Assembly (NCBI GenBank): GCA_900498135.1
Contig: LR026961.1
Coordinates: 1,082,386 to 1,146,385, forward strand
Direction of reading: 5' to 3'
DNA from: an uncultured Desulfatiglans sp.
GTDB taxonomy: Bacteria > Desulfobacterota > DSM-4660 > Desulfatiglandales > Desulfatiglandaceae
Length of the DNA stretch: 64,000 bases
Positions within the stretch are counted from its first letter, which is position 1. Every line of letters begins with the position of its first letter. Below, in pieces: positions 4,289-62,874 of this stretch. Below the pieces are notes generated by a model. That model was not told the origin of the DNA. It searched no databases and saw only the letters and a program-made list of their open reading frames with translations. The translations under genes were made by a program, and so were the position numbers.

Positions 4289-4565
4289 TGTCTCCATCCG
4301 GAAAAAAGCATCCTGCGCGACAGCCCCTCCAGTCCGTAAACGAGGGATTTTCTTCACACCCTTCGGGTGCTCAGTCCCCCCCTGCGGGGCGGGTCCCGGT
4401 TTCTTCACACCCTTCGGGTGCTCAGTCCCGCCCATCCGGAGCGGCTCCAGGTCCTGCCCATGTCAGGGGACACCATCGTTTGCCTGGGGAAGACCTGTAG
4501 GTCGCCGCACGGGCAAACCGGGCAAACGGGCAAATCGCGGCCGAGATTGGCAGGAGAGACCACCT
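4289..4565 (+). repeat. R1 element, decayed copy carrying R2 insertions
   Basis: Left arm CTCCATCCGGAAAAAAG at 4292 and GTCCGTAAACGAGGGATTTT match the left half of the intact R1 copy at 31253. The right half (GACCTGTAGGTCGCCGCAC, then GCCGAGATTGG) matches its centre and right arm. Between them sit one and a half R2 units (4352-4433) at the same internal point that R2 occupies in the copy at 31626-31950. The region lies upstream of alr, between divergent genes. Confidence 0.7.
4352..4433 (+). repeat. R2 hairpin element, one full and one truncated tandem unit
   Basis: Unit 1 is 4352-4402 and unit 2 begins at 4403 with the same bases (CTTCACACCCTTCGGGTGCT) and stops after about 31 bp. Each unit holds a small stem (CACCC-TTC-GGGTG) followed by a C-rich/G-rich stem (CCCCCCC and GGGCGGG around a CTGCG loop). 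A related 52-bp unit with changed but still pairing stems is at 31689-31740. Confidence 0.75.
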
Positions 4566-4815
4566 CGAGGCTGAGAACAAGCTAACTGATCTTCTTGCAG
4601 AGTTCAAGCGCAATTGCAGCACGCATCCGGTGCAGCCTTGACAGCCTCCGATTCCATCTCTATCATGGTCCGGCATTTGGGTCGGCCCCATCAGGAGCCG
4701 GTTGCCCGATGCCGCAGCTCCAATGCCCGGGGTCCATGGAGCAAGGCCGCACCTGCCCCTTGCAGGCGTGCTGATGAGATCCCGGAACTCCTTGCGGCAG
4801 GCCCTCCCTTGGACG

Positions 4816-4993
4816 GCTGGTTTCCATCCGGAAGATGTTTATCCAACACGGCAGGAATTCCGACCCGGGATGAGGATTTGCCGCCGATACCCATGAAACC
4901 GAGAGCGTGTCCGTGCGGCGGCCTGCAGGCCGCCACACGAACAGGCGTGGAAATCGACGCCGAGAGCGGCAGAATGCTCCCGTTCCGAGTGGG
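4816..4993 (+). repeat. R1 element, decayed full-length copy
   Basis: Starts with GGTTTCCATCCGGAAGATG, contains GGGATGAGGATTTG, a perfect 18-bp palindrome GGCGGCCTGCAGGCCGCC at 4917-4934, then AATCGACGCCGAGAGCGGC and TTCCGAGTGG. Block order and spacing equal the intact R1. The central palindrome differs from the usual GGCGACCTGCAGGTCGCC by one base on each side, keeping a perfect stem. It ends only 16 bp before the DUF2065 start codon. Confidence 0.75.
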
Positions 4994-20451: not shown

Positions 20452-20625
20452 ATCCTGTCCGGAAATGTTCTTTTCAGCCAATCTTCGCGTCAGCCTGCAC
20501 GCCTGCCCGGGTAGCGACCACCCGGTCGCCTCCGCGCAAACGCTTGATTCCCTTCAGATCGGCCAAAAACCCTCTGCTCCGGATTGGAAACTCGTTCGTA
20601 CCGGCGAATCATTTCGGGATACAAC
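20452..20625 (-). repeat. R1 element, decayed copy between rplU and rpmA
   Basis: On the plus strand TGTCCGGAAATG, CAGCCAATCTTCGCGTCA, a stem GCGACC-ACCC-GGTCGC (20514-20529), CCTCCGCGCAAACGCTTGAT, GATCGGCCAAAAACC and CTCCGGATTGGAAACTCG follow the R1 block order of the copy at 23783. The central palindrome has a different loop but both six-base arms are kept. It is inside the predicted rplU-rpmA transcript, starting 18 bp upstream of the rpmA ATG. Confidence 0.75.
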
Positions 20626-23782: not shown

Positions 23783-23993
23783 GAATTAGTTTCCATCCGG
23801 AAATGGTCTTTTTGGCCAATCTCGGCGTCAATCTGCACGTTTGCTTGTGCGGCGACCTGCAGGTCGCCTCCGCGCAAATGCTTGATTTCCTTGATATTGG
23901 CCGAAAATCCTCATTTCCGGATTGGAAACTTAGTCCTACCGCGAAATTATTTCCGGATGCACACGAATTAGTTTCCATCCGGAAATGGTCTTT
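23783..23993 (-). repeat. R1 element, well-preserved copy plus partial tandem
   Basis: On the minus strand this is almost base for base the copy at 31253-31440. The central palindrome GGCGACCTGCAGGTCGCC is at 23851-23868. The 29 bases at 23783-23811 recur as a direct repeat at 23965-23993, so a second copy begins with 182-bp periodicity but breaks off. The array ends about 58 bp before the MarR-type gene. Confidence 0.9.
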
Positions 23994-24507: not shown

Positions 24508-24735
24508 AGCGTCTGGAAAAGGCTTTTTTGGCCATCTTTGCGTCAGTTTGTGCGCCTGCCTGTGCAGCGTGCCTTTCGTGCGTTTTCGCTCAGCCGATTG
24601 CTTTTATCGACTTTGTCGAACCAGGACCCGCCGCAAAACGCTGAGTCTCTGCACCCGAAGCGTGTAAAGGAAAAAATCCTCATTTCCCGCCTGGAAATTG
24701 TTTCATGTCCAAAGCTTCATTTCCGGATGGAAGCA
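24508..24735 (-). repeat. R1 element, heavily decayed copy
   Basis: GTCTGGAAAAGGCTTTTTTGGCCATCTTTGCGTCA-like bases at the left and AAAATCCTCATTTCC plus CTTCATTTCCGGATGGAAG at the right follow R1 outer-block order in the same orientation as 23783. The middle (24545-24660) is diverged and longer, and the central palindrome is lost. It lies in the 382-bp gap before the ABC transporter; beyond it only the promoter at 24783 is seen. Confidence 0.55.
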
Positions 24736-31252: not shown

Positions 31253-31440
31253 GAATTCGTGTCCATCCGGAAATGATTTCGCGGTAGGACTAACTTTCCA
31301 ATCCGGAAATGAGGATTTTTGGCCAATATCAGGGAAATCAAGCGTCTGCGCGGAGGCGACCTGCAGGTCGCCGCACAAGCAAACGTGCAGATTGACGCCG
31401 AGATTGGCCAAAAAGACCATTTCCGGATGGAAACGAATTC
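31253..31440 (+). repeat. R1 element, complete type copy
   Basis: 188 bp. The left 24 bp (31253-31276) and the reverse complement of the right 24 bp (31417-31440) agree at 22 positions; both begin GAATTCGT and contain TCCATCCGGAAATG. Inside are a second CCGGAAATG block, the inverted pair TTTTTGGCCAAT / ATTGGCCAAAAA (31316-31415) and an 18-bp perfect palindrome GGCGACCTGCAGGTCGCC (31355-31372). The region from 31299 to 31430 can fold as one long imperfect hairpin. No coding capacity is credible. Confidence 0.9.
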
Positions 31441-31625: not shown

Positions 31626-31950
31626 GCGTCCATCCGGAAATATGGCTTTCAAAACGAAATAGTTTCCAATCCGGAAATGAGGATTTTTCTTCACACGCTG
31701 CGCGTGCTCAGTCCCACCCTTGCGGGGTGGGTCTCGGTTTGGCCAATATCAATGAAATCAAGCGTTTGAGCTGAGGTGACCTGCAGGTCGCCGCACAAGC
31801 AAACGTGCAGATTGACGCCGAGATTGGCCAAAAAGACCATTTCCGGATGGAAATCAAGCGTTTGCGCGGAGGCGACCTGCAGGTCGCCGCACAAGCAAAC
31901 GTGCAGATTGACGCCGAGATTGGCCAAAAAGACCATTTCCGGATGGAAAC
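31626..31950 (+). repeat. R1 composite: R2 insertion and tandem core duplication
   Basis: R1 left arm at 31626-31688, an R2 unit at 31689-31740, then two tandem copies of the R1 core with 96-bp period (centres at 31775-31792 and 31871-31888), ending GGATGGAAAC at 31950. The first centre reads GGTGACCTGCAGGTCGCC, one base off perfect symmetry; the second is perfect. Confidence 0.9.
31689..31740 (+). repeat. R2 hairpin element inside R1
   Basis: 52 bp. Stem 1 is CACGC-TGC-GCGTG (CACCC-TTC-GGGTG at 4352); stem 2 is CCCACCC-TTGCG-GGGTGGG (C-rich/GGGCGGG at 4352). Both stems changed on both arms. Flanked by GAGGATTTTT and GGCCAATATC, the two halves of an R1 arm that are contiguous in the copy at 31253. 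Confidence 0.8.
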
Positions 31951-62676: not shown

Positions 62677-62780
62677 TATCTCGCGTGGGGTTTCCGGACA
62701 CGCCTCAGGAGTAGTTGAGATGAAAAGAGCCTTTGGTTCTGGCGTGAAAATCGTCCTGACCACGGAATCGGTCATTGGGA

Positions 62781-62800
62781 TCATCCGGAAATGAAGTTTT
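62781..62800 (+). repeat. short R1-like terminal block
   Basis: TCATCCGGAAATGAAGTTTT matches the terminal CATCCGGAAATGA block of R1. Only about 13 bases are shared, so chance cannot be excluded. Confidence 0.3.
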
Positions 62801-62874
62801 GAAAATGACGTCGTTTTCAGGCCGGGATGGAATATCTCCCGCGTTCAACCGCCATTATCTTGAAAGGAGTCGCC

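Follow-up and report, generated by a model that had tools for sequence, protein, structure and literature searches.

The window analysed here is a stretch of 64,000 nucleotides (positions 1,082,386-1,146,385 of G000, the single-contig, 4.80-Mb genome of an uncultured Desulfatiglans sp.) that carries copies of an interspersed repeat, R1, some of which contain a shorter unit, R2. At 31626..31853 (plus strand), sequence and nhmmer arm models define an R1 host with one R2, its left arm spanning 31626-31688 and its right arm 31741-31853. The R2 unit between the arms, at 31689..31740 (plus strand), measures exactly 52 bp, as delimited by sequence, a 0-mismatch pattern match and the genome-wide register, and comprises hairpin 1 (31694-31706, CACGC-TGC-GCGTG), hairpin 2 (31713-31731) and a terminal TTT. 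In two R1 copies that lack R2, the join between GAGGATTTTT and GGCCAATATC is unbroken: one at 31261..31434 (plus strand), flanked by the 6-bp duplication GAATTC (31255-31260 and 31435-31440), and one at 23789..23964 (minus strand), flanked by GAATTA as read on the plus strand (23783-23788 and 23965-23970). A sequence-only reading of this DNA had proposed that R2 sits at the same point of R1 in two loci, one of them in partial tandem at 4352, and both observations hold. The second locus is a decayed R1 at 4290..4578 (plus strand, ends approximate) with two R2 units at 51-bp pitch, the first of 51 bp at 4352..4402 and the second, in which hairpin 2 is degraded, at 4403..4452 (both plus strand). 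A degraded R1 with one R2 (24624-24672) at 24512..24731 (minus strand) was absent from that reading's list; two further R1 copies, at 4823..4992 (plus strand) and 20455..20620 (minus strand), are decayed and without R2. The R2 pattern has three matches in the window and none in 100 shuffles.

Adjoining the first host, the sequence shows the right arm of R1 partially repeated in tandem at 31850..31949 (plus strand), where GGATGGAAA meets TCAAGCG. The same dimer-like join occurs at G000 191371, 4449163, 4475100, 4606959 and 4549350, and its recurrence suggests that there may be an R1 subfamily with a doubled right arm. At C1:276201 the sister species has an R1 with two R2 units; window 62776-62830 (G000 1145161-1145214) has partial left-arm-like surroundings and no full element.

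The position of R2 was scored in 2.06 Mb of G000 (43% of the genome) and in 0.4 Mb of the sister species G001, a biased sample because it was picked around R2 matches, using profile models for the left arm, R2 and the right arm, which strongly decayed units can escape. R2 occupies one exact point of R1, GAGGATTTTT^(CTTYACACNCTNCGNGTGCTCAGTCCCACCNCTNCGNGGCGGGTCCCGGTTT)n^GGCCAATATC, and with CTTCACAC...CCCGGTTT taken as the unit, an R1 without R2 reads exactly GAGGATTTTT^GGCC at this point. The register is constant for 114 + 55 units, the left-R2, R2-R2, R2-right and left-right gaps each peaking at one or two values. Among 104 full-length R1 copies in G000, 58 have no R2, 32 have one, 13 have two and one has three, such that about four in ten carry one to three whole units. 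Tandem units keep a constant 51-52 bp pitch with TTT common to the unit boundaries, and R2 units that lack both arms mostly lie in decayed arm sequence. Genome-wide, the first half of R2 at up to 3 mismatches has 187 matches in G000 and its reversed pattern has none; in G001 the R2 pattern at 2 mismatches has 136. The other R1 arm offers a mirror site, TTTTT^GGCCAAT, at which R2 was found in 0 of 169 units. A repeatedly used target would be expected to be hit on both sides, which disfavors repeated target-specific insertion and favors a single ancient insertion event; of the earlier suggestion of site-specific insertion, the fixed site is supported, whereas a repeated process in this genus is not.

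R1 itself spans about 174 bp, is bounded by imperfect inverted ends (GTGTCCATCC...GGATGGAAAC) and has a palindrome at its center. Matches to it occur in 25 of a set of 61 related genomes that includes the one with the window, representing 20 of 40 genera. Flanking 6-bp duplications (at least 5 of 6 bases) accompany 24 of 60 R1 copies without R2, against 2.0 after shuffling, and 9 of 54 R2-bearing copies, against 0.8. Comparison of G000 with G001 revealed two R1 insertions that are missing in one species, which retains a single copy of the target (GAACTA, TGGTTA). An intact 1.7-kb insertion sequence (G000 1500164-1501861) has R1-like ends and encodes a transposase of the ISNCY family (NF033593, 445.8 bits, cut-off 325); G000 holds two more near-complete copies, one with an internal TGA, and GTTTCCATCCGGAAA is common to the ends of all three and of R1. 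This insertion sequence is also flanked by 6-bp duplications, such as TAAATA, and a homologue that is 66% identical occurs in another genus, in a copy flanked by TAATTA duplications. Based on the common ends, the 6-bp duplications and the empty sites, R1 is best interpreted as a MITE that belongs to this ISNCY insertion sequence, which would presumably mobilize it in trans. At one locus of G001 (L089), an R1 copy lies between flanks that are widely separated in G000 (compared with G000 4699790, L065 and 1500164), a junction consistent with a rearrangement through R1 copies. At G000:3015810-3016406, R1 monomers with ends in common are arranged in tandem at a pitch of about 142 bp; the assembly has N letters there.

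R2 folds into two hairpins with TNC triloops. The sequence-only reading had noticed that the stem arms changed together, and counts of pairs on the named stems in 119 units, set against shuffles, bear this out. Columns 12/18 are G-C in 50 units and C-G in 50, with Watson-Crick pairs in 101 (shuffled mean 52, maximum 69), and columns 34/40 are G-C in 59 and C-G in 45, with Watson-Crick pairs in 104 (shuffled mean 56, maximum 73). The two strands differ in stability: the bottom strand folds better in 110 of the 119 units with RNA energies and in 103 with DNA energies, and as RNA it reaches -22.2 kcal/mol versus -17.1 for the top strand. Hairpin 2 contains, in 95 of the 119 units, one top-strand A.C pair that corresponds to a G.U wobble of the bottom strand, and other genera keep this mismatch as well. 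The loops of the bottom strand are of the GNA type, and GNA loops make unusually stable DNA hairpins. A search of Rfam with the window and the loci gave no match.

The sequence-only reading had also raised the possibility of an R1 subfamily that carries R2. R2 presence is indeed clustered on the tree of R1 arms, requiring 27 changes versus 42.8 with shuffled labels, but the R2-bearing copies do not form one subfamily, as a single clade is rejected (AU test, p = 0.0038). Arm divergence climbs with R2 number (0.065, 0.094 and 0.135 for n = 0, 1 and 2), indicating that the youngest R1 copies are mostly without R2 and that R2-bearing copies are older, the direction of change in n being judged from divergence. 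The divergence of R2 correlates with that of its arms (rho 0.60), a relation more in keeping with joint inheritance than with the late arrival of R2 in copies that were already old. At orthologous loci many arrays keep their R2 number, and in some the two numbers are a complete unit apart (1 versus 2, 2 versus 1); among the orthologous pairs examined, none had n = 0 against n of at least 1 in an otherwise identical R1. The interiors of some orthologous elements diverge more than their flanks, as is expected from exchange between copies. R2 is enriched in intergenic DNA and, beyond that, has no preferred gene orientation. A stronger constraint on R2 than on R1 was considered, since R2 has the lower divergence from its consensus, but orthologous loci do not bear it out: the identity of R2 there (0.90) equals that of the flanks (0.90). 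R2 thus accumulates changes roughly as fast as the DNA around it, in the manner of a passenger, and any benefit to the cell would be hypothetical.

In other genera, R2-like units are less bound to this place. G018 and G049 carry them, singly or in pairs, at a different R1 site, GTTTCCAATT^CAGAAATGAG, and G018 has a related unit in reverse orientation at the R1 site CTTGATTT^CCTTGATC. In G009, four R2-like units follow TGTCATTT outside R1, and R1 was not found in this genome. G057 has 25 R2-like units, some in tandem at 56-bp pitch and some outside R1. At all clear junctions a T run is followed by a unit with a TTT end, and the empty form is intact. Named records contribute three R2 pattern matches, all from the MAG 'Deltaproteobacteria bacterium Meg22_1618_Bin_163'; no viral contig had a match, and a contig scan with a nearby ORF of the window returned no relatives. 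That such units occupy other sites of R1, face both ways and are also found away from it indicates that the module is older than its present association with R1 and was transferable, and implies that the R2 family has inserted more than once in evolution. The sequence-only reading had named R2 copies placed at random or unconnected with R1 as grounds against its view; these are not a feature of this genus and do exist in other genera, where the units outside R1 still join at a T run in the clear cases; across related genera, the history does look insertion-like. Two side observations concern further modules. Four loci of G018 (L148, L263, L270, L277) have a second hairpin module, TTTGTCC...GGACTCCCC...GGGTCCCCGGTTT, in reverse orientation at another T-run site of R1, and this too can be tandem. 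At two loci of G009 (L268, L271), a short palindrome, TTTCGATCCCGCC...GGCGGGATCGAAA, adjoins an R2-like unit, and hairpin modules of several kinds may therefore cluster.

The reading that we favor, at a probability of about 0.68, combines an ISNCY-moved MITE with an older module that lodged in it once and has since spread with it, gaining and losing whole units. R1 would be a non-autonomous element moved in trans by the ISNCY-family transposase, and R2 a self-contained double-hairpin module derived from an older and wider family. In an ancestor of the genus, R2 would have lodged a single time in the left R1 arm, at the boundary of TTTTT with GGCC, and would then have been copied along with R1 at transposition and shuffled among R1 copies through recombination or gene conversion. 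Its number would change only by whole 52-bp units, probably driven by unequal exchange of repeats that have TTT at their boundaries. For the family as a whole a single insertion would not hold, as implied by the R2-like units that other genera have elsewhere in R1 or away from it.

The principal alternative, which we consider unlikely, is that R2 is a tiny mobile element in its own right. It would enter DNA in one direction, 3' of T runs, perhaps from a single strand like the elements derived from IS200/IS605, and would build its arrays by repeated re-insertion at the same T run. The recurrent junction of a T run with a unit ending in TTT, at GGATTTTT^GGCC here and at the G018 and G009 sites described above, is consistent with this idea, as are the numerous and partly tandem units of G057 and the consistently better folding of one strand. 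Units of the same array are, moreover, no more alike (similarity 0.812) than units of different arrays (0.807), as re-insertion would have it. The mirror site, however, is unused in this genus, and R2 and its host arms age together. A partner enzyme is also missing, none with R2 ends having been found among IS200 copies or RAYT-like loci. IS200/IS605 was rejected as partner because the IS200 copy at G000:4559060 has end hairpins of the CCGGCTTTGCCGG type, unlike R2, and RAYT because the R2-family model lies near only one of about 35 Y1-transposase loci, a locus of the R2-rich G001. Extended to the whole family, this would make R2 an independent mobile unit of some 50-56 bp, composed solely of two hairpins, that parasitizes other MITEs and whose directional insertion 3' of T runs leaves no target duplication, a proposition that we regard as unlikely.

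Replication slippage inside each R1, starting from a first R2 that was a decayed piece of R1 or of a transcript, is very improbable: the constant tandem pitch and the common TTT boundaries would suit it, but the lack of any greater likeness between neighbors within an array rejects local slippage as the main source of arrays, and R2-like units exist outside R1 in other genera. Less probable again is a functional RNA element (a processing site, insulator or attenuator) whose bottom strand is selected and for which R1 is a mere vehicle, since the strong stem covariation, the more stable bottom strand and the conserved wobble of hairpin 2 that speak for it are set against the lack of an Rfam match, an R2 identity at orthologous loci no higher than that of the flanks, and the absence of a preferred gene orientation.

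In architecture, R1/R2 may be called BOX-like, a resemblance that does not make it a member of the BOX family. BOX elements of Streptococcus pneumoniae and S. suis have the form boxA-boxBn-boxC, with inverted ends, target duplications and terminal inverted repeats like those of ISSpn2; their internal hairpin module is present from zero to several times in tandem, in numbers that vary between strains, and one boxB module of S. suis is framed by either of two distinct flanking pairs (PMC3049150). R1/R2 likewise is interspersed, with inverted ends that resemble those of a resident insertion sequence, target duplications and a variable tandem hairpin module; R2 is present zero to three times at a fixed join, with whole-unit differences between close species at orthologous loci, and its occurrence in different surroundings recalls boxB in its two frames. 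Unlike BOX, the partner of R1/R2 is an ISNCY insertion sequence, and the likeness is treated here as an analogy only. R2 further differs in having two hairpins with TNC triloops, in joining at T runs and in reaching at most three to four units, and R1 without R2 is already a complete palindromic MITE that is found across genera.

BrickBuilt of Porphyromonas gingivalis is likewise a MITE with an internal tandem array of variable number and terminal inverted repeats like those of a resident insertion sequence (PMC4596501), as R1 is, but its 23-nt repeats, IS5-type ends, 4-bp duplication and roughly 19 copies set it apart from R1/R2 (PMC4596501). The Correia/NEMIS elements of Neisseria are one MITE in two forms, told apart by an internal segment of 50 bp at a constant position (PMC2229807), comparable to the two forms of R1; the Neisseria segment differs from R2 in carrying an IHF site, and tandem copies or occurrence of the module elsewhere are not described for NEMIS in the text consulted (PMC2229807). 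As a small hairpin unit with strand-asymmetric folding and no obvious target duplication, R2 also resembles REP/RAYT and elements derived from IS200/IS605, but it is not consistently found beside RAYT-like genes and, unlike the IS200/IS605-derived elements (PATE), does not share its ends with resident IS200 copies.

Mobile arms with an optional tandem hairpin module, the BOX architecture, have thus arisen in a distant bacterial class. Here the transposase has a clear candidate, and many genera preserve R1 in its empty form. The origin of boxB-like modules is, to our knowledge, not settled. As an R2-type module is found here in either orientation, at several sites and also away from its host element, the entry of a hairpin module into a MITE becomes testable by strain comparison.
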